DNA of 64,000 nucleotides, taken from Notoacmeibacter sp. MSK16QG-6 (lineage in GTDB: Bacteria > Pseudomonadota > Alphaproteobacteria > Rhizobiales > Rhizobiaceae). The position numbers and the translations under genes are program-made. The notes beneath the pieces were generated by a model, which searched no databases, had not been told where the DNA came from, and saw nothing but the letters and a program-made list of their open reading frames with translations. The DNA is taken from contig NZ_JAMYXM010000001.1 in NCBI RefSeq assembly GCF_024158145.1, positions 806,001 through 870,000 on the forward strand, given 5' to 3'. The first letter of the stretch is position 1, and the number at the start of each line of letters is the position of its first letter. Positions 33,435-42,533 of the stretch are shown here, one piece after another.

Positions 33435-34721
33435 TCAAGCCGTCGCTTTTAAATGGGCCGTGCTCCAATCCGTCGCGTCGGTTACCGTTCGCCCACGGCC
33501 ACGCGCCTTCGCCTGGTAGAGAGCAGAATCGGCGAGCCTGACGAGATCGGCAGCCGCCATTCCGGCGCCGAAATCGCTGATGCCGGCACTGAAGGACACG
33601 CTGAACGCGCCCTGCTCAACGTCGAATTCGGTCTCTTCAAAAGTTTCACGCAGGCGGTCGATGACCTGAGCGGCCGCTTCGGCGTCAGTATCGAGCAGGA
33701 TCACGCCAAATTCTTCACCGCCCAGCCGCCCGATCAGATCGGTCTTGCGAAGCGAGGTCGAAAGCAATGTCGCCAGAGACCGAATGACACGGTCGCCGAC
33801 CTGATGCCCATAAGTGTCGTTGACAGACTTGAAATGATCCAGATCGATCAGTGCGACGCTGACCTTGGCCTTGGTGCGATGGCTCCGTTCAATCTCGTTC
33901 TCCAGCTGCGCGTGGAACCGTCCGTGGTTCAGAAGTCCCGTCAGGCTATCGCGTTCGATCAGACTTTTGAGAGCGCCGGCCCTTTGGAGCCGCATCTCGA
34001 CGACTTCGCACAACCGGCTCGGGCTTACGGGTTTTAAAATGAAATCGTCGCCGCCCAGCCGGCGTGCCTGCAACTGGCGATTGGGGTCGCGTTCGCCGGA
34101 AAGAAAAATGATCGGCAGAGAGAGATTTTCCTGATCCTGCCGAATGATACGCGCAAACTCGATACCATCGACATCGGGCATCTGCAGGTCGAGCAGGACC
34201 GCGTCGACGGAATCGGCCTGGAGGAAGGAGAACGCCTGCTGCGCGCTTTCGACAACCGTTACGGTCATATCGGCCTGACGCAAAGCCTGAGCACTCACTT
34301 CCTGGGTCATGAAATCATCGTCCACGATGAGCACGTGAGACTGACGCGCATGTTGCAGCGTCGAGAAATGGCGGACCCAACTTGTCAGTTCGTCACTGGA
34401 GAGTGGAGCGTGAACGATCCCGGCCACGCCTTGCCTCGCGGCCTGGAGCCGAGCCCCGAATGCGTTGTCATCGGTGATCTTGATCGTCGGCAGATGACGC
34501 GCCGTCTCCTGCCATCTCGCCATTGCGTGTTTTACGCCGTCATTGACGATGGCAAGATGCGGCTGAAAGGCGTCGTCTTCGAATGGGAGATCGGAAAAAC
34601 CGTCGATGGGCGTGAAGCGCAGTTCACCGACGACGGCACTAATCTGCGAGAGCGATGCACCCTCGTCGAAGATGACGATCGATCCCCGGTTTTTAGCGTC
34701 GGTGATATTGGCGTTATGCAT
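33435..34721 (-). CDS. Receiver-GGDEF diguanylate cyclase (PleD-like)
   Basis: 428 aa from ATG 34721 (GGAGGG just upstream). Residues about 14-120 resemble a receiver lacking a proper phospho-site ('LAIVNDGVKH'); the second receiver (about 128-240) is complete, with D178 in 'AVLLDLQMPDVDG'. The GGDEF domain has an intact GGEEF (334-338), and an inhibitory-site RKTD (325-328) 5 residues before it. It should make c-di-GMP when phosphorylated, with product feedback. First gene of dgc-hpt-kinase. Confidence 0.92.
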   Translation of the reverse strand: MHNANITDAKNRGSIVIFDEGASLSQISAVVGELRFTPIDGFSDLPFEDDAFQPHLAIVNDGVKHAMARWQETARHLPTIKITDDNAFGARLQAARQGVAGIVHAPLSSDELTSWVRHFSTLQHARQSHVLIVDDDFMTQEVSAQALRQADMTVTVVESAQQAFSFLQADSVDAVLLDLQMPDVDGIEFARIIRQDQENLSLPIIFLSGERDPNRQLQARRLGGDDFILKPVSPSRLCEVVEMRLQRAGALKSLIERDSLTGLLNHGRFHAQLENEIERSHRTKAKVSVALIDLDHFKSVNDTYGHQVGDRVIRSLATLLSTSLRKTDLIGRLGGEEFGVILLDTDAEAAAQVIDRLRETFEETEFDVEQGAFSVSFSAGISDFGAGMAAADLVRLADSALYQAKARGRGRTVTDATDWSTAHLKATA

Positions 34722-34900
34722 GATCCCTCCACAGCCGCATCCTGCCAGAAGACAGTGCCGGAACCTCAACGCCATCTTTCCTTTATTGGCTGTAGAAAGT
34801 CTTAACGCCACCTATTCAGGGAACCTCAAGCAACGGACCGTTAGCATTTTGAAAGCGAAATTCATTGAGAATACGGACTGCCACTCCCGGAGGAACAAAC

Positions 34901-36091
34901 GTGACCATCTCCCCAGACGGCCCAATCATTCTGATCGTGGACGACGATCCGGACTTTCGGGAGATTCTCCGGGGCGTTCTTCAAAAGAATAATTTCCAGA
35001 CTCTCGAAGCCAAAAGCGCACAAGATCTTTCCAGCTTCGTCGACAGCAGCGAATTCGACTGTGTTCTGCTCGACTACCGTCTGGAAGGCGAGACGGCCTT
35101 TCATGTCATGGATGTCCTCGCCAAATCCTCCAATGCGGACGCTCCGGTCATCATGATGACCGGCTCGACCGAGCAGAGTGTCGCCATCAAGGCTTTCCGC
35201 TTCGGTGTGGCCGATTTTCTTCCGAAGACGACACTCGGATTTCGCGATCTCGGCAATGTGATTCAAAAGGCCATCGAAAATAAGCGCCAAAGCGTTGCAG
35301 AGCGCACCGAGTTGAAACGTCTTCGCGAAGAGCGCGTCATCGATATCGTCACCGGCACATTCAGCCGGACCGAGTTCGAGCGCCGCGTGGAGTCACATGT
35401 CGAGGCCGGCCCGTCGCGGCATGATCCTGTCATCGTGCTTTCGCTCGACGCCTATTACCGCGAGACGCTCAGCCGTTTTGGGCAGAAGAATGCCGATGCG
35501 CTGCTTCGCGAGGCGATAACGCGTCTGCGCGCCCACACCGATTCCGAAGATATATGGGGCCGGACGGGCGACGGAACCTTCGCCTGTCTGTCGCCCTCGA
35601 TCAAAGACAGGGCGAGCTTGCAGAACAAGCTCGAAACGCTCCAGAAAGCCGCATCCTTCATTTTCCGTGTCGGTGCGGCAGCCCTTTCCGTAGAGCCTGA
35701 ACTACACACACTTATTGCATCGGACGGGGCCGGTGCTCTCATTGAAAAGCTGGCCGATCTGTCATCGCCATCCGGTGAACAGACGGCCACCCAGCCCGCC
35801 TTTACAAACTTCGCCAGCGCGGACGATGGTACGAACGATCCCACCGGCGAACAGGTGGAGAGGCGGCGCGTGCGCCGTACACGTGTTCTGAAAGCCGCCA
35901 AGATCATCGTCGGTCCATCGACAATCGACTGCGCGGTGCGGGATATGTCAGAACTCGGCCTTCGGCTGAGGCTCGAGCAGTACACGCCGCTTCCCTCCCG
36001 GTTTGCCGTGCGGCTTTCCGATACGGGTGAAGTTCGGGACGTTGGGCTGCGCTGGCAGCGCGACCGTGAATGCGGGGTAGAGTTTGTCTAA
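34901..36091 (+). CDS. Receiver, degenerate GGDEF and PilZ protein
   Basis: 396 aa from GTG 34901, with GGAGG at 34889-34893, 7 bases upstream. Receiver 1-120 with D58 in 'CVLLDYRLEGETA' and K in 'FLPKTT'. A GGDEF-like fold (about 140-270) has GRTGDGTF (220-227) where GG(D/E)EF would be, so cyclase activity is unlikely. The C-terminal PilZ domain (about 319-396) keeps the arginine-rich start and D-x-S-x-x-G (DMSELG, 348-353), so c-di-GMP binding is plausible. Divergent from the diguanylate cyclase operon across 179 bases. Confidence 0.88.
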   Translation: MTISPDGPIILIVDDDPDFREILRGVLQKNNFQTLEAKSAQDLSSFVDSSEFDCVLLDYRLEGETAFHVMDVLAKSSNADAPVIMMTGSTEQSVAIKAFRFGVADFLPKTTLGFRDLGNVIQKAIENKRQSVAERTELKRLREERVIDIVTGTFSRTEFERRVESHVEAGPSRHDPVIVLSLDAYYRETLSRFGQKNADALLREAITRLRAHTDSEDIWGRTGDGTFACLSPSIKDRASLQNKLETLQKAASFIFRVGAAALSVEPELHTLIASDGAGALIEKLADLSSPSGEQTATQPAFTNFASADDGTNDPTGEQVERRRVRRTRVLKAAKIIVGPSTIDCAVRDMSELGLRLRLEQYTPLPSRFAVRLSDTGEVRDVGLRWQRDRECGVEFV

Positions 36092-36133
36092 GCCTGGTCG
36101 ACCGCGGCGCTGGCGATAAGTTGATTCTGTCGG

Positions 36134-36517
36134 TCAGCGGGGCGCCGAAACCAGCGTATCCTTGACCTGCTGGATAAGTTCGAGCGGCATGAATGGCTTG
36201 GCAATTACACCTAAAGCGCCGAGAGCTATGTATCCGTCGACATCCTGCTTTTGGGTTCTCGCCGTCACGAAGATTATGGGAATGTTGTTGGTCTCCTCGA
36301 CGAGGCGCAGACGACGCAACGTCTCAGGACCATCCACCACCGGCATCATCACATCAAGCAGAATGACGTCCGGCTTCCAGGTTCTGGCCAGCGGCACGGC
36401 TTCTTCGCCAGAGGCGCACGCTTTGACATCGAACTCATCGCCGAGGCCCAGCGAAATCGTCGCGATCTCACGAATATCCGGTTCGTCGTCGACATATAGG
36501 ACGCGCAATTTTTCCAT
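36134..36517 (-). CDS. Single-domain response regulator (receiver only)
   Basis: 127 aa CheY-like receiver with 'LYVDDEPD', D55 in 'VILLDVMMPVVDG', T in 'FVTART' and K in 'VIAKPFMP'. No output domain. Close paralogue of the receiver at 29109, sharing 'D(V)MMP', 'GVIAKPF' and the overall length. It follows the kinase gene (stop 36551) by 33 bases on the same strand and is its likely partner. Probably passes phosphate to the Hpt protein or acts by protein contacts. Confidence 0.92.
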   Translation of the reverse strand: MEKLRVLYVDDEPDIREIATISLGLGDEFDVKACASGEEAVPLARTWKPDVILLDVMMPVVDGPETLRRLRLVEETNNIPIIFVTARTQKQDVDGYIALGALGVIAKPFMPLELIQQVKDTLVSAPR

Positions 36518-36550
36518 TCGGCCATCCCGCGCTTCGGTCAGCGAGAGACG

Positions 36551-38329
36551 TTAGCGCGAGAAGGCTTCATGTTTTCCTAATGGCACGACGGTCTCGCCTG
36601 CTTCCGCCTCGTTCAGCTTTTGCCGCAAGGAATCTGACAGCCGGCCCGTCATATCAGCGGCATCGGACGCCATTTCTACGATGGGAAACTCCACGATAAA
36701 GGTTGTCCCCTCGCCCATGGCGGTGTCGAAATCGATGGCGCCGTCCATTCGCTCCACAATCGCCTTGCAAATATTGAGCCCCAGACCCGTTCCGCCCTTC
36801 GTTCTATTGTCGGCAGAGTCCACCTGTTCAAACTTTTCGAACAGGCGGTGGTGAAACGATGCCGGAATGCCAGCACCTTCATCTGTGATGGAAATCCGAG
36901 CCTTCCCGTCATTTTCTTTTAGCCGAACGGTGACAGTGCCGCCGCTTGGCGAAAACTTCAGAGCGTTCGAAAGCAAATTGGCGATGATCTGGTTGAACCG
37001 GTCGGCATCGACGAGGCCCGCAAGACCGGGCGCCTCGTTGTGGAACTCAATTGCGACATCGTCAGACGATCGATAATTGGCACTACCTTCAATTGCTTCT
37101 TCGATCAGACCATCGAAAGCCGTTGGGCTCAGTTCGAAAGGCATCGAACCGGATTCGATCTTCTCGATATCCAGAATGTCATCGACAAGGTTCTTTAGCC
37201 GCTCGCTGTTCTGCAAGGCCAGACCAAGAAGTCGATCCACCGACTCCGGCATCTTCCCCTGACTGCCGCTCGCCAAGAGGCTGAGCGCGCCGTGGATCGA
37301 CGTCAGAGGGGTCCGCAATTCGTGGCTAACAGTTGCAACGAACTCGTTCTTCATCCGCTCGTTGCGTTTCTGGGTGGTGATATCAGAGATACTTCCGTCC
37401 CAAACCAGGCGTTCATGACTGTCGACCCGCGGCTCCGCGCTGAGTTGCAGCCAGACCAGTTCGCGCGTCGGGTGTTGGTAAGTGGCTTCGAAAGACCAAC
37501 GATTTCTGCTCTCGGCAGACGTCTCCAAAAGATGCATGAGGCGCGCCCGGTCGGTTTCATTGAGAAGACCGTAGAGAAAGTCCGGCGTCTCCAGAAACCG
37601 CTGACGGCGTATACCGAAAATCTTGCGGCTGCCCTCGGACACATACGGAAAACATAGGCGCCCCCGATCGTCCAAGGTCATCTGAAACAACATGCCCGGA
37701 GCATTGTTGGCGATGGCGACGAGATGAGCTTCCATCTCGACTTTCGATTTAATCGCCCACCGTCTCTGCTGCTCGGCAATGATCAATCCGCCAAGAAGCA
37801 GCACCGCCAGAAAGTTGGTCGGCACGAACATGCTGGCCGACCGCAAAACGATTTCTATAGGCACTTGGGCGAGGATGAATATCGTTATTGTGGGAACGAT
37901 GCCCGCGATCAGCGCCTGGTAGAAAATGTATAATTTGGACGGCGCGAAACCACGCCACTTTGTCCACCACGCCCAAAGGATCACCGATGAAAGCGCAGCC
38001 GTTCCGATACTGGCTGCTCCGGCTATCGCGCCCAGACCGCCATAGCTCCAACGTATCGCCATCATGACGATCGCGCTGATGAGCGCGCTGATCGGTCCGC
38101 CGATCGCGCCCGAAAGCACGGCTACTGCGTTGCGAGGATCAGTCCTGACACCCGGGATCAGTTCGACCGAATTCGACATGACGATGGCGCCTGTCACGGC
38201 AAACACAATCCCGTAGACGATGCCGCCCAGCCAGAGCGACCCCCGAAGCCTTTCTCCGAAGAACACACAACAAAGCACGGCGACCACAATCACCGAACCG
38301 CCTTCGATCATAGATATGATGGAATCCAT
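36551..38329 (-). CDS. 5TM-LYT histidine kinase
   Basis: 592 aa from ATG 38329, with GAGG about 6 bases upstream. N-terminal membrane region (about 1-195) resembles the 5TMR-LYT sensor ('NAVAVLSGAIGGPISALISA', 'WSYGGLGAIAGAASIG'). A PAS-like domain (about 210-320) follows, then HisKA 'FVATVSHELRTPLTSIHG' (His near 335) and HATPase 'NLLSNALKFSPSGG', 'GTGLGLNICKAIVERM'. No receiver. The catalytic half closely resembles the kinase at 29547. Followed by the receiver gene 36134. LYT-type sensors often respond to cell-wall or small-molecule cues; the ligand is unknown here. Confidence 0.9.
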   Translation of the reverse strand: MDSIISMIEGGSVIVVAVLCCVFFGERLRGSLWLGGIVYGIVFAVTGAIVMSNSVELIPGVRTDPRNAVAVLSGAIGGPISALISAIVMMAIRWSYGGLGAIAGAASIGTAALSSVILWAWWTKWRGFAPSKLYIFYQALIAGIVPTITIFILAQVPIEIVLRSASMFVPTNFLAVLLLGGLIIAEQQRRWAIKSKVEMEAHLVAIANNAPGMLFQMTLDDRGRLCFPYVSEGSRKIFGIRRQRFLETPDFLYGLLNETDRARLMHLLETSAESRNRWSFEATYQHPTRELVWLQLSAEPRVDSHERLVWDGSISDITTQKRNERMKNEFVATVSHELRTPLTSIHGALSLLASGSQGKMPESVDRLLGLALQNSERLKNLVDDILDIEKIESGSMPFELSPTAFDGLIEEAIEGSANYRSSDDVAIEFHNEAPGLAGLVDADRFNQIIANLLSNALKFSPSGGTVTVRLKENDGKARISITDEGAGIPASFHHRLFEKFEQVDSADNRTKGGTGLGLNICKAIVERMDGAIDFDTAMGEGTTFIVEFPIVEMASDAADMTGRLSDSLRQKLNEAEAGETVVPLGKHEAFSR

Positions 38330-38648
38330 CGCGAACCTCTTACCCTTACAAAGAACTATGGAGGACAAGAGATTAAGAATTGATATTGAAGCAGAGCCGA
38401 ATCCCGGCAGTATAACTAAGAATATATTGCTACCTATGGGCGCTCATAATGCAACCGGTCACCTAACCTTGCGTTACATTTCATTCCTGGCTGGCCACAG
38501 AGGTCAGGACGCAATGGAGCGCAGGCCGCCACATTGACCCGCGGCGCGTGCAACAAATGTCGTTTCCGCCTTCCGTTCAGGATGGTTTGCCAAATGGCAC
38601 GCGCTGCTACATAGACAGTCAACGATATTCAGCGAACGAAAGATTGCC
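38330..38648. other. 319-base intergenic region between kinase and rsbR
   Basis: Divergent region, AT-richer than its surroundings. A weak promoter-like pair toward rsbR is TTGAAG (38386-38391), 19 bases, TATAAC (38411-38416). It would leave a leader of about 225 bases. I found no GGAAC/CGTT (EcfG-type) element, no strong ribosome site before the rsbR ATG and no convincing small ORF. Nothing else can be supported. Confidence 0.4.
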
Positions 38649-39521
38649 ATGCCCAACGAAACAACCGTCGCGTCGATCATCATTAATGATTACGATCGCG
38701 TTTTGGCCGAATGGCTGAAAGTACAGACTGCGGAAGGTGTTAAAAGGACGGACCTCGTTTCCGGCAAGGAGTCGGAGCAACAGAGCCGCGAACTTCTGTC
38801 GGCGATGGCGAAAGCCATGCCGAAAGAAGCGACGGATGACGATCTCGATCTGGCGGAGGCGGGCTGGGAGCCGGTTCGCGATGCCCTGGAGGATATTGCC
38901 GAGAACAGAACGCAGCGCGGTGTTTCGACCACCGAAATGGGTTGGTTCATCGGCGCGCTCAAACAGCCCCTCTTCAAGATGCTGCAAAGCGAGCTTGGCG
39001 AGAAGCCGCGCGTTCTGATGCGGGAAATCTGGAACGCCACTCGGCTTATCGACCAGATCAGTCTTCACGCGATCGAAACTCTCGTCTCCAAGCGCGAGGC
39101 GATCATCGAACGCCAGCGCGCCGAGATGACGGAGGTCGCCGCACCGGTCGTGAAAATATGGGACAGCATCGTGACCGTTCCGCTGATCGGCACGTTGGAC
39201 TCGTTCCGTGCTCAGACCGTGATGGAAAATCTGCTGGATGCCATCGTGCAATGGGAGGCCGAGGTTGCCATCATCGACATCACCGGCGTTTCGACCGTCG
39301 ATACCATGGTCGCGCAGCATCTGCTGAAGACGGCATCGGCTGTACGCCTCATGGGTGCCGAATGCGTCATTTGCGGCATCAGTCCGAAAATCGCGCAGAC
39401 GGTCGTGAACCTTGGGGTGGAACTGCCAAACATCGTGACACGTGTCGATCTGGAAAGCGGTCTCGCCTACGCATTCGATCGGCTAGGTGTGCAGGTCGGT
39501 CGAGGATCAGCGGGTGCTTGA
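38649..39521 (+). CDS. rsbR: RsbR-like stressosome scaffold/sensor
   Basis: 290 aa. An N-terminal all-helical domain (about 1-160) resembles a sensory/scaffold turret, and the C-terminal STAS domain (about 165-285) is close to Bacillus RsbRA: 'AIIDITGVSTVDTMVAQHLL' and 'GISPKIAQTVVNLGVELPNIVTRVDLESGL'. Putative phospho-acceptors are T219 (VDT) and T251 (AQT), corresponding by motif to the RsbRA threonines. In stressosomes RsbR with RsbS forms the large complex that traps RsbT. First gene of a five-gene operon; its stop overlaps the rsbS start. Confidence 0.92.
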   Translation: MPNETTVASIIINDYDRVLAEWLKVQTAEGVKRTDLVSGKESEQQSRELLSAMAKAMPKEATDDDLDLAEAGWEPVRDALEDIAENRTQRGVSTTEMGWFIGALKQPLFKMLQSELGEKPRVLMREIWNATRLIDQISLHAIETLVSKREAIIERQRAEMTEVAAPVVKIWDSIVTVPLIGTLDSFRAQTVMENLLDAIVQWEAEVAIIDITGVSTVDTMVAQHLLKTASAVRLMGAECVICGISPKIAQTVVNLGVELPNIVTRVDLESGLAYAFDRLGVQVGRGSAGA

Positions 39522-39891
39522 CGCGGCCAACCCTATTCCGATGATGACGATTAATGGCTGCATCATCGTAGCCATTCGCGACGATCTGGACGATCAGGAA
39601 ATCGTCTCTCTCCAAGACCGGCTCGTCGAGGAAGTGGCCAAGCGCAACGCCCATGGCGTTGTCATCGACATATCGAGCCTTGAGATCGTCGACACCTTCG
39701 CCGGTCGAATGCTCGCAGCGATGGCGCAGATGGCGCGGGTCATGAACGCAAGGACAATCGTTGTCGGTATGCGTCCGGCCGTTGCCATGACCCTCGTCGA
39801 ACTTGGAATGACCCTGGACGGGGTGGAGACAGCATTGAACGCGGACCGGGCTATCAACGCGATTGTGAGTGACCGGTCAAACAAGCTGTGA
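39514..39891 (+). CDS. rsbS: RsbS-like stressosome core STAS protein
   Basis: 125 aa from GTG 39514 (GAGGA at 39502-39506). It overlaps the rsbR end. A single STAS domain matches RsbS: 'IPMMTINGCIIVAIRDDLDDQE', 'GVVIDISSLEIVDTFAGRML' and 'VVGMRPAVAMTLVELGMTLDGVETALN'. The acceptor position, Ser59 in Bacillus RsbS, is Thr61 here (VDT). RsbS with RsbR forms the core that binds RsbT until phosphorylated. Coupled to rsbT by GTGA. Confidence 0.92.
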   Translation: MLDAANPIPMMTINGCIIVAIRDDLDDQEIVSLQDRLVEEVAKRNAHGVVIDISSLEIVDTFAGRMLAAMAQMARVMNARTIVVGMRPAVAMTLVELGMTLDGVETALNADRAINAIVSDRSNKL

Positions 39892-40292
39892 CCGACGAAG
39901 CCGCGAGGGTGACGCTCAAGACATCAGGCGATGTCGCGTTCGCAAGGCAGGCGGCGGCAAAAGCGATGGCCGCCATCGGGGCATCCACCATCAAAAGCAC
40001 GAAATTCGTCACAGCCGTCTCCGAGATCGCCCGCAACGCCGTCATCTACGGGCGTGGCGGCGTTATCAGCTTCTCCGAGGCCGGCGCCGCCGGACAGAAA
40101 CGCGTCGTCGCTGTGTGCACCGATCGCGGACCCGGTATTGACGACATAGATCGGGCGGTCAGCGACGGGTTCAGCACGGGAAAAAGCCTTGGCCTTGGAT
40201 TGGGCGGAGCCAAACGGCTTGTCGACCGTTTCGAAATCACCTCATCTTCCAAACAGGGAACGAAAGTAACACTCGAATGTGGCCCCCGATGA
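39888..40292 (+). CDS. rsbT: RsbT-like switch kinase
   Basis: 134 aa from GTG 39888, overlapping the rsbS stop as GTGA. GHKL-type ATPase: N box 'AVSEIARNAVIYGRGG', 'DRGPGIDDID', 'GLGLGGAKRLVDRF'. In Bacillus, RsbT phosphorylates RsbR/RsbS, is released and activates RsbU; here no RsbU is in the window. The likely alternative partner is the fusion kinase at 41284, which has its own RsbT-like domain. Stop overlaps the start of the next gene. Confidence 0.93.
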   Translation: MTDEAARVTLKTSGDVAFARQAAAKAMAAIGASTIKSTKFVTAVSEIARNAVIYGRGGVISFSEAGAAGQKRVVAVCTDRGPGIDDIDRAVSDGFSTGKSLGLGLGGAKRLVDRFEITSSSKQGTKVTLECGPR

Positions 40293-41287
40293 TCTCACTA
40301 CCGGTCGAAGACGAAAGCCAGATCGGGGCCGTTCGCCGTGCATCGCTGGCCGCTGCCAAATCGGTCGAACTGACAGATGACGATATGGATCGGCTGGCGA
40401 TCATCGTGACCGAAGCCTGCACCAATCTCATTCGTCACGCCAAGAACGGCGAGGTGCTTATAGGCGCGGAGACCGGCGGCAAGGGTGGGTGCGTGACCAT
40501 TGTCGCTCTCGATGGCGGACCTGGCATCACCAATGTCGAAGCGGCCATGGTGGACGGCTTTACCACAGCCGATTCCAAACCCCGTGGGATCGGTGGCGGT
40601 CTTGGCTCCATGCAACGAATGGCCGATTCATTCGACATTCATAGCGGGCCGCATGGCACCACGCTGGTCGCGAAAATCGGTCATCGCCGACAGGCCTCAT
40701 CATTCTACGACGTCGCAGGACTGATCGTGCCAAAACCTGGTTACGAAATGGGTGGCGACGCCTTTAATCTGCGGGTCGGCAAGACCACCACCACGGTCAT
40801 GCTTATGGACGTGCTGGGCCATGGGCCGAAAGCGGCCCAAGACGCCGCGACCGGCGTCGAGGCCTTTGCAAAGACGAAAACCGCAACACTTGAAGAGACT
40901 GAGCAGGCGATCGCCCATGCGCTGGCAGGCGGGCGGGGCGCAGCGGCCTTGCTCGTCGAAATTCCGCACGAGCCGGGCGTCTTACGCTGCGTCGGCGTTG
41001 GCAATATCAAAGGCGACATTTTCCACGCCGATGGACGGCGTAACGGCATCCCGTCCCAGCCGGGCATATTGGGCGCCACCTCCCGCCATCCACGTGTGAC
41101 GGAGCATGAATGGACATCCGAATCCGTCCTCCTGCTTGCCACCGACGGATTGAAGACCATTTCAGCCCAACCAGAGCCGACATCCCTGTTCTTCCGAAGT
41201 GCAGAGATGATCGCCAGCACAATCTACAAACTGAAGCGCCGGGGAACCGACGATTCGGGCGTTCTTGTCGTGAGGTCCCGCCCTTGA
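40289..41287 (+). CDS. ATPase-PP2C protein (RsbX-like phosphatase with anti-sigma-type domain)
   Basis: 332 aa from ATG 40289, overlapping the rsbT stop as ATGA. Residues about 1-130 are a GHKL ATPase of the RsbW/anti-sigma type ('VTEACTNLIRHA', 'DGGPGI', 'GGGLGSM'). About 135-332 is a SpoIIE/PP2C-type phosphatase with 'GYEMGGDAFNLRV', 'MDVLGHGPKA', 'LLLATDGLK' and 'DDSGVLVV', keeping metal-binding aspartates. RsbX in Bacillus removes phosphate from RsbS/RsbR; the extra N-terminal domain suggests a fused switch. Coupled to the next gene by TTGA. Confidence 0.85.
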   Translation: MISLPVEDESQIGAVRRASLAAAKSVELTDDDMDRLAIIVTEACTNLIRHAKNGEVLIGAETGGKGGCVTIVALDGGPGITNVEAAMVDGFTTADSKPRGIGGGLGSMQRMADSFDIHSGPHGTTLVAKIGHRRQASSFYDVAGLIVPKPGYEMGGDAFNLRVGKTTTTVMLMDVLGHGPKAAQDAATGVEAFAKTKTATLEETEQAIAHALAGGRGAAALLVEIPHEPGVLRCVGVGNIKGDIFHADGRRNGIPSQPGILGATSRHPRVTEHEWTSESVLLLATDGLKTISAQPEPTSLFFRSAEMIASTIYKLKRRGTDDSGVLVVRSRP

Positions 41288-42414
41288 AATCCGTTGTGAC
41301 ATCGATCGCGCTCGAACAGGATGGCGACGTCTCCCACACTCGGCGCACGGCGCGGCTCATTGCCAAGGTCGGGGGCGCGACAAGCCGTGATCAGATCCGC
41401 TTCGCTACCGCCGTCTCGGAGATTGCGCGAAACGCCGTTCAGTATGGGAAGGACGGGGTCGCGGAGTTTGCGTTTGACGAGGGAAAATCAGGACTCTGTC
41501 TCATCGCCCGTGTGCAGGACCACGGAAACGGGATCGAAGGGCTCGACGATCTCCTGCGCAACCGTCACCAGTCCCATCGCGGGCCGGGCCTCGGACTTTC
41601 CGGTTCTCAGAAGCTGGTTGACGCCTTCCGCGTCAACACGGACGAAGCCGGCACGACAATCGACCTAACTCTCAATCTAGGCGGAAATGACGATGCTTCC
41701 GACATTGCGAAGGAAGCCGCGGAGGCGCTCGTCAAAGCCTCGCACGGATCGCCCATCGAGGAGCTGGCAGAACAGAACCGAGCGCTTCGTGATGCATTGG
41801 CGGAACAACAGTTCCTGCTGCGGGAAATGCATCACCGAACCAAGAACAATCTTGCGATCATTCAGTCGCTTGCCCTTCTTCAGGCCCGGCAGTCGAGCCA
41901 CGAAGAGACCCGTAAGGCGCTGAATGATTTCACCGGCCGCATCCAGGCCTTCGCCAACGCGCATAATCTTCTGCACCAAGCCGACGACGTGACCGAGGTC
42001 GATCTGCAAAAACACATCGAGACGCTTGCGGAACGTCTGCGCCTTGCTATCGACAAGAGCGGGGTATCGATCGAAACGCAGAGCGAAGCGCTTTCTGTAT
42101 CCTTCGATACGGCGACCGAGATCGGTCTGATCGTCAACGAGTTGCTGACCAATGCCGTCAAACACGCATCGAGCAAAGGACGCGGCAAAAAATGCGTCCG
42201 GGTCACTGCAGCTCAAAAGGGGCCGAAGATTCGCCTGACCGTCAAAGATGACGGCCCGGGCCTCGACAATGCCGAAACGGTTCTGCGCAAGTCGCGTTCG
42301 CTCGGTTGGAAAATCGTCGAGGGCTGCGTCAGAAAGCTCAATGGCAGCATCGAGGTGGATGGCAGCGACGGCATGGCCGTCTCCATCGAATTCAACGGCC
42401 ATTCGCTCCAATAG
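41284..42414 (+). CDS. RsbT-like domain fused to HisKA_2 histidine kinase
   Basis: 376 aa from TTG 41284, overlapping the previous stop as TTGA. Residues about 1-133 match the stand-alone RsbT ('FATAVSEIARNAVQYGKDGV', 'DHGNGI', 'GPGLGLSGSQKLVDAF'). About 165-376 is a HisKA_2/HWE-type kinase: 'REMHHRTKNNLAIIQSLALLQAR' (His183), 'FANAHNLLHQ', 'GLIVNELLTNAVKHA', 'DDGPGL'. No membrane segment or receiver. The stressosome could set this kinase's state through its RsbT-like domain. Kinases of this class often feed PhyR in alphaproteobacteria; that link is inference. Confidence 0.88.
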   Translation: MKSVVTSIALEQDGDVSHTRRTARLIAKVGGATSRDQIRFATAVSEIARNAVQYGKDGVAEFAFDEGKSGLCLIARVQDHGNGIEGLDDLLRNRHQSHRGPGLGLSGSQKLVDAFRVNTDEAGTTIDLTLNLGGNDDASDIAKEAAEALVKASHGSPIEELAEQNRALRDALAEQQFLLREMHHRTKNNLAIIQSLALLQARQSSHEETRKALNDFTGRIQAFANAHNLLHQADDVTEVDLQKHIETLAERLRLAIDKSGVSIETQSEALSVSFDTATEIGLIVNELLTNAVKHASSKGRGKKCVRVTAAQKGPKIRLTVKDDGPGLDNAETVLRKSRSLGWKIVEGCVRKLNGSIEVDGSDGMAVSIEFNGHSLQ

Positions 42415-42457: not shown

Positions 42458-42533
42458 TGGTGCCCAGGGGTGGAATCGAACCACCGACACTGCGATTTTC
42501 AGTCGCATGCTCTACCAACTGAGCTACCTGGGC
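42458..42533 (-). tRNA. tRNA-Phe (GAA)
   Basis: 76 bases with encoded CCA. Acceptor GCCCAGG pairs with CCTGGGC, discriminator A. The D arm GCTC..GAGC, anticodon loop CTGAAAA with GAA, and T arm GGTGG-TTCGATT-CCACC are all intact. It converges on the stressosome operon and ends the housekeeping block as in other Hyphomicrobiales. Confidence 0.98.

Follow-up and report, generated by a model that had tools for sequence, protein, structure and literature searches.

A stressosome operon ending in a histidine kinase with a built-in RsbT-like domain was found in Notoacmeibacter sp. MSK16QG-6, at positions 38649–42414 of the 64,000-nucleotide stretch of contig NZ_JAMYXM010000001.1 that was analyzed (the window). 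The operon was confirmed to be more than a chance array, since RsbR and RsbS matched chains of solved stressosomes (6QCM, 7O0I, and 6JHK) and the gene order was kept in many genomes. Two-component output, which the first-pass annotation of this DNA had proposed, is the best reading because the terminal kinase of this recurrent operon has an RsbT-like input domain. The kinase is very probably the output of the stressosome and probably docks through that domain, and the case that PhyR is its target in the window genome is evenly balanced.

Organization of the stressosome operon

The open reading frame list and a Pfam scan gave five plus-strand genes with overlapping ends. The first gene, rsbR (38649–39521), encoded an RsbRD_N sensor domain (E = 2e-17) and a STAS domain (5e-17). 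The second, rsbS (39487–39891, likely start GTG 39514), encoded a STAS domain (1e-11), and the third, rsbT (39888–40292), encoded the switch kinase, with a HATPase_c_2 match of 5e-12 and with the N-box Glu and Asn and the G1 box intact. The fourth gene, here termed PX (40277–41287, likely start ATG 40289), combined HATPase_c_2 (1e-15) with a SpoIIE/PP2C domain (1.5e-10). The fifth gene was that of the RsbT-domain histidine kinase (41284–42414), which, scanned from 41110, showed two ATPase stretches, HisKA_2 (1e-19), and HWE_HK (2e-12), in the Pfam order HATPase_c_2, HisKA_2, and HATPase_c. The overlap was GTGA at the rsbS/rsbT junction and TTGA at the PX/kinase junction, and it is ATGA at the start of PX if that gene begins at ATG 40289. 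The longest form of the kinase frame opened at 41110, and the alignment of its relatives began at TTG 41284, which overlaps the stop codon of PX; since the relatives align from there, the end coordinate first given for the kinase is correct. The first-pass annotation had listed rsbR, rsbS, rsbT, an ATPase-PP2C gene, and an RsbT-like/HisKA_2 kinase gene at this place, and the Pfam domains and overlaps agree with it. Its statement that no RsbU or sigma factor is encoded here holds for the locus.

Stressosome core

RsbR was composed of a variable N-terminal domain of the RsbRD_N type and a C-terminal STAS domain, which is the build of a stressosome RsbR. Residues Ser185 and Thr219 of RsbR aligned with Thr175 and Thr209 of Listeria RsbR, and residue Thr70 of RsbS (numbered from 39487) aligned with Ser56 of Listeria RsbS. 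These Listeria residues are phospho-acceptors (PMC6614362; this and the papers cited below were covered in part). All three core acceptor positions of the window were occupied by Ser or Thr, and RsbS had a phosphorylatable acceptor, with Thr in the place of Ser. The ATP and catalytic residues of RsbT were intact, as in the switch kinase of a stressosome.

The two RsbR acceptor positions were Ser and Thr, by pattern match, in 18 of the 19 loci with a HisKA_2-type kinase that are described below; the pattern was unmatched in L070, yet the RsbR alignment row of this locus also reads Ser and Thr. The Thr or Ser state of the RsbS acceptor was considered as a marker of HisKA_2 output, which was true in the first 18 loci and failed in the larger set. 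The idea was dropped because the five loci with phyR in the operon carry Ser, and the state tracks clades.

PX phosphatase

PX joined an RsbT/SpoIIAB-like ATPase domain to a PP2C phosphatase of the RsbX type. Its predicted structure had a predicted local distance difference test score (pLDDT) of 84.5 and a predicted template modelling score (pTM) of 0.85. The top structural match of the model was the Moorella stressosome phosphatase 3ZT9 (TM by target 0.88), followed by RsbX 3W40 (0.81), with SpoIIAB 1TIL (0.75) further down the list. In the PP2C motifs, the Asp residues, which have a metal-binding role, were invariant across seven aligned PX sequences. The structural matches and these Asp residues make a resetting role the best reading of PX, as a phosphatase of the RsbX feedback type with an unusual added N-terminal ATPase domain. 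Through its RsbT-type domain, PX could be recruited to the STAS core. The presence and domains of the ATPase-PP2C protein thus stand as first described, and its designation is amended to RsbX-like on the matches to 3ZT9 and 3W40.

RsbT-domain histidine kinase

The kinase contained an RsbT-like domain (residues 2–132) and a linker helix (residues 156–168) with SPIEELAEQNRAL, followed by HisKA_2, with the H-box HHRTKNN, and the catalytic ATPase domain. In the predicted model SPIEELAEQNRAL sits in a long helix of residues 157–203. The HWE kinase EL346 (4R39) was the closest solved relative by sequence and, among the 50 matches listed, by fold. Eight HisKA_2 matches were found in the genome, the strongest being the kinase of the stressosome operon. 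The best four of 14 HATPase_c_2 matches all lay in this operon, and no RsbT-sized frame besides RsbT itself was found among the 14.

In a tree of 78 domains (133 columns), the RsbT-like domains of the kinases formed one clade (95/93) and the PX domains formed another (95/99). The free RsbT proteins did not lie on one side of a branch in the three-domain tree (3 changes), in which the backbone was weak and L084 was a long branch. Over 98 domains, the N-box Glu and Asn were kept in 37 of 37 RsbT proteins, 33 of 33 PX domains, and 27 of 28 kinase domains, and the lid motif was DG[FY][ST][ST] in RsbT whereas it was mostly [GN]R[YH][RQ]S in the kinases. A linker motif, [DSNE]P...[QK]N[RQ].[LM], followed the RsbT-like domain in 26 of the 28 kinases scanned, before either HisKA_2 or HisKA, and was not found in L109 or L121. 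Locus L153 was outside the 28-kinase motif set, and none of the domain sets included L050 or L052. In two kinases, encoded at L084 4130–6208 (−) and L153 4981–7482 (+), the ATP site of the RsbT-like domain was lost while the protein was retained, which fits docking better than catalysis. The sequences suggest that the RsbT-like domain serves as a docking and switch module, to which ATP chemistry would be secondary.

Distribution of related loci

Of 397 genomes of the order, 12 were matched in a search with a single RsbS protein (E 1e-8). A search with an RsbS alignment (E 1e-25) gave matches in 13 of 385 genomes of the class, 13 of 82 genomes of the order of G741 (a genome described below), and 23 of 398 genomes of the phylum; the search sets overlap. 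Six named loci on genome contigs (Flavimaribacter, four Aurantimonas, and Mangrovicella) and three plasmid loci (Phaeobacter inhibens DSM 17395, Salipiger, and Deinococcus radiodurans R1 MP1) were added, and the tally held 62 stressosome loci, the window included.

A kinase with an RsbT-like domain stood directly after PX in 35 of the 62 loci, so that the five-gene order, which the first-pass annotation had proposed to look for in other genomes, is recurrent. The transmitter of these 35 kinases was HisKA_2 in 19 and HisKA in 16, and the assignment was made by Pfam scan for 25 of them and by phmmer or hidden Markov model matches together with alignment for the others. All 19 HisKA_2 fusions were alphaproteobacterial. 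The six RsbT-domain kinases from outside Alphaproteobacteria, that is, from loci with the database label 'same phylum' and from Deinococcus, were all of the HisKA type (L121, L146, L148, L150, L151, and L153). On the kinase tree, from which L084 was dropped as a long branch and in which L153 was not included, the best tree needed 3 exchanges between HisKA and HisKA_2 and the well-supported branches forced just 1; no number of exchanges is therefore claimed.

The five-gene operon was present on the 262-kb plasmid of Phaeobacter inhibens DSM 17395 (L069 6349–10167). In a separate match, 65 Phaeobacter plasmid records matched the window kinase, and not every one of them necessarily carries this operon. 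Deinococcus radiodurans MP1 (L121 4687–10491) had the order rsbR, rsbS, rsbT, PX, and RsbT-like HisKA-REC kinase, followed by a REC-HisKA kinase. The genes of L121 are annotated merely as STAS, anti-sigma regulatory factor, and ATP-binding proteins.

Other arrangements were also met. Loci L093, L094, and L162 carried a stand-alone PP2C and an RsbU_N kinase, and six loci (L115–L120) had the kinase upstream of rsbR; L118 ended at a contig edge before PX, and the PP2C half was undetected in L117, L119, and L120. Loci L086 and L091 were cut off, and no kinase was recognised downstream in L160 and L161. In one of the 62 loci (L092, 4414–8548), a PAS-type RsbR and the ATPase-PP2C gene were followed by a GGDEF-EAL protein, possibly a direct cyclic-di-GMP output. 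Two tandem RsbT-like genes with a stand-alone PP2C were found at L067 (7252–8731), L114 (3991–5444), and L159 (5723–7212), and are perhaps the unfused counterpart of PX.

Possible connection to PhyR, NepR, and EcfG

The genome of the window (3.5 Mb, 15 contigs, 99.7% complete) contained all three proteins to which the signal had first been proposed to run, with one NepR match flanked by PhyR and EcfG. The HisKA_2 transmitter thus occurs in a genome with PhyR–NepR–EcfG, as expected of a general stress response kinase. An RsbU-type output elsewhere in the genome, which had been named as one part of the finding that would refute two-component output, had no candidate in the SpoIIE genome search (E ≤ 0.001), RsbU_N (PF08673) not being searched genome-wide; by this search, the RsbU phosphatase output of the Bacillus SigB-type pathway was lacking. 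The two SpoIIE matches were PX and, identified by eye, a PPM phosphatase-Ser/Thr kinase fusion. The fusion (L011 484–2223 (−), contig C8) adjoins a likely formate/nitrite transporter gene, also read by eye.

In the related genus g399, phyR opened the stressosome operon in all five genomes searched (G741 and G851–G854), 15–16 bp upstream of rsbR. The five genes are at L087 8259–9062 (−), L110 6720–7511 (−), L111 3586–4377 (+), L112 6485–7288 (−), and L113 6372–7175 (−). In G741 the distance was 15 bp on the same strand, and the protein matched PhyR_sigma2 (3.5e-22), PhyR_sigma-like (2.8e-12), REC (5e-15), and NCBIfam PhyR (309 bits against a cut-off of 240); the PhyR proteins of G851–G854 were identified by phmmer. 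The operon phyR was the top PhyR_sigma2 match of the genome in all five, and the second PhyR-like gene of G741 was less similar to the window PhyR (117 vs 220 bits). The last gene of the five operons encoded an RsbT-like HisKA_2 kinase, by Pfam in G741 and G854 and by homology in the other three. PhyR_sigma2 (PF22029) was not used as a presence test for PhyR because it also matches ECF sigma factors; it matched 29 of 29 genomes, and the second match of the window genome was EcfG itself. Conserved gene order supports PhyR output in this one genus, and its extension to the window genome is plausible.

Several observations weigh against the chain from the stressosome through the kinase to PhyR. 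The phyR gene of the window genome was on a different contig from the stressosome operon, phyR was adjacent in just five of the 19 HisKA_2-type loci, all of one genus, and no phyR was found beside the operon in the other loci scanned (at least 6 kb), the window included. The best NCBIfam match of the kinase transmitter was PhyK (NF051872), which in itself speaks for the chain, but its 109.5 bits were far below the equivalog cut-off of 750; the transmitter of the G741 kinase, also best matched by PhyK, was likewise far under it with 140.9 bits. A second HisKA_2 kinase of the window genome, L002, also best matched PhyK (87 bits), so PhyR has other candidate donors there. Of 22 stressosome genomes, 3 gave no NepR match, and of these one was 89% and one 90% complete. 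The consensus of EcfG promoters is GGAAC-N16/17-CGTT. No such site was found within 400 bp upstream of the window rsbR, where it would have marked the operon as a member of the EcfG regulon, nor upstream of phyR in the five g399 operons. The same scan gave sites at 2 of 24 loci, both of the HisKA type, and one match in the phyR-nepR-ecfG locus L009; EcfG-dependent expression was not supported as a general feature of these operons. Most of the 16 HisKA versions carried their own REC, and these versions indicate that the general design is the RsbT-domain kinase and is not specific to PhyR. A HisKA kinase in which no RsbT-like domain was found followed PX in 10 of the 62 loci, and the domain is therefore dispensable. 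Finally, the predicted model of the kinase (pLDDT 73, pTM 0.41) had low inter-domain confidence, and its domain placement was left unused because the model is only fair. The link to PhyR–NepR–EcfG suggested in the first-pass annotation is thus partly supported, by the transmitter class, the genes in the genome, and the phyR-first operons, and is weakened by the separate contig of phyR and the lack of an EcfG-type promoter before rsbR.

Proposed signal chain and alternatives

RsbR and RsbS would build the STAS core, and three proteins with RsbT-type ATPase domains, namely free RsbT, PX, and the kinase, would be clients of one STAS surface. In the unstressed cell the core would hold the kinase through its RsbT-like domain. 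Under stress, RsbT would phosphorylate RsbR at Ser185 and Thr219 and RsbS at Thr70, and the affinity of the core for its clients would fall. The released RsbT-like domain may then order the adjoining linker helix and switch the HisKA_2 kinase, comparable to the action of RsbT on RsbU. The phosphoryl group would pass to a response regulator, most likely PhyR, by which EcfG would be freed from NepR. PX would act as an RsbX whose own RsbT-like domain takes it to its substrate, and would reset the core. Taken as far as the kinase, and with PhyR as the most likely target, this chain has in our view an even chance of being right.

A receiver other than PhyR is the strongest alternative, although somewhat unlikely: the stressosome would still gate the kinase, and the phosphoryl group would go to a single-domain response regulator or to a nearby receiver-GGDEF protein. 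Just upstream of the operon (window 33435–38368) were the genes of a membrane kinase with five transmembrane segments, PAS, and HisKA, of a single receiver, and of two receiver-GGDEF proteins. A single-domain receiver gene was located about 520 bp upstream of rsbR in the Salipiger HisKA_2 locus, and another was downstream in L060 (HisKA_2), beside another kinase. The REC domains of most HisKA versions, several of which are followed by REC-kinase genes, and the three genomes in which NepR was not found also favor such a target. However, the flanks of the operon in L048–L053 and L057 (about 4–7 kb) showed no receiver gene, so the receiver neighbors of the window are not a conserved part of the system, and phyR heads the operon in five genomes. 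The upstream gene group as a whole was likewise not seen next to the operon in the closest relatives. The neighboring kinase and receivers were therefore rejected as conserved partners, and a partnership may still hold in the window itself.

It is doubtful that the RsbT-like domain of the kinase is no STAS client and that released RsbT instead pairs with this domain or with the linker helix, in the manner of RsbT and RsbU_N. RsbT does act on RsbU through the N-terminal domain and linker (PMC12143880), RsbU_N kinases are present at the three stand-alone-PP2C loci L093, L094, and L162, and the ten kinases after PX in which no RsbT-like domain was found would still need some contact. On the other hand, none of the 25 Pfam-scanned RsbT-domain kinases, of the 35, had an RsbU_N match. 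We know of no precedent for the pairing of RsbT with an RsbT-like domain. A reversed signal flow, from the two-component system to the stressosome, is very improbable. In this reading the RsbT-like domain would serve as a second serine/threonine kinase that acts on the STAS proteins under control of the histidine kinase part. The intact N-box Glu and Asn of 27 of 28 kinase domains favor it, whereas the altered lid motif of the kinase clade speaks against it, as do L084 and L153, in which the protein has been kept without the ATP site.

Two more general statements go beyond this chain. One is that the stressosome and PhyR–NepR–EcfG form one pathway in some alphaproteobacteria, through an RsbT-domain HisKA_2 kinase that phosphorylates PhyR once the phosphorylation switch that frees RsbT has also released it from the STAS core. 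The other is that, by fusion to a kinase and to RsbX, the diffusible messenger RsbT became an integral module for docking and switching, combined with exchangeable transmitters. Taken together, they are put forward tentatively, at a little less than even confidence. A histidine kinase with a built-in RsbT makes the output of a stressosome readable from the gene. If the kinase feeds PhyR, the stressosome–SigB and PhyR–EcfG types of general stress response, both well studied, would be connected in series in some species, and a cytoplasmic multi-protein complex would be added to the inputs of the alphaproteobacterial response. The phyR gene at the head of the stressosome operon in one genus makes direct wiring of both stress systems testable. 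Operons with an RsbT-domain kinase are present in Phaeobacter inhibens DSM 17395 and in Deinococcus radiodurans R1, so that laboratory strains are available for tests.

Genomic context

A tRNA-Phe gene was located directly downstream of the operon (window 42458–42533, −), a possible integration site given the sporadic distribution of the operon. The G+C content was mostly 0.59–0.61 in the operon, 0.60–0.62 downstream, and 0.56–0.59 upstream, and this comparison gave no clear compositional sign of horizontal transfer at the tRNA gene.

Comparison with known systems

Wiring of stressosomes to two-component systems is already published, also for alphaproteobacteria (PMC9237108, PMC10014275, and PMC12143880 mention cases), and is not new in itself. 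The targets of Gram-negative stressosomes are described as largely open (PMC9237108). An RsbT-domain kinase, a tethered phosphatase, and a phyR-stressosome operon were not met in the open-licence literature searched (titles and abstract openings), with key stressosome reviews outside its scope.

The sensors of known general stress response kinases include LOV and PAS domains. The window kinase shares the transmitter class of the PhyK and LOV-HK kinases (HWE/HisKA_2), with EL346 (4R39) as its best structural match, but no RsbT-like-domain sensor was met for this type in the literature searched. HWE/HisKA_2 kinases coordinate the alphaproteobacterial general stress response (PMC12148442).

The stressosome of Moorella thermoacetica has the diguanylate cyclase MtG as its output (PMC12143880). 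Like the window system it has a non-sigma output, and its phosphatase 3ZT9 is closest to the PP2C half of PX. However, the 3ZT9 chain of 192 residues is without an ATPase domain, and the output is a diguanylate cyclase where the window has a kinase.

RsbT switches RsbU through the N-terminal domain by ordering the linker coiled coil, in a study that also draws attention to RsbU_N kinases (PMC12143880). RsbU_N signalling proteins are reported from alpha, beta, and gamma groups, and Ruegeria is given as one example of kinase-receiver phosphorelays that act downstream of stressosomes (PMC9237108). The window kinase resembles the RsbU_N kinases in a stressosome input through an N-terminal domain and linker helix, whereas those kinases need the binding of RsbT to RsbU_N and the window kinase has a built-in RsbT-like domain and no RsbU_N.

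Vibrio vulnificus has an rsbRSTX stressosome with D1/D2 downstream (PMC9237108, PMC10014275), and deletion of the D1 kinase gene gives phenotypes that resemble the rsbRSTX deletion (PMC10014275). As in the window, the stressosome genes are followed by a two-component kinase, with no SigB cascade. In the surveyed Vibrio type, RsbR is a globin and RsbX a single-domain protein, a combination lacking in the window in contrast to L093 and L094, and the parts of these papers covered mention no RsbT-like domain for D1. The window RsbR is instead of the RsbRD_N type, and both the phosphatase and the kinase bear RsbT-like domains.

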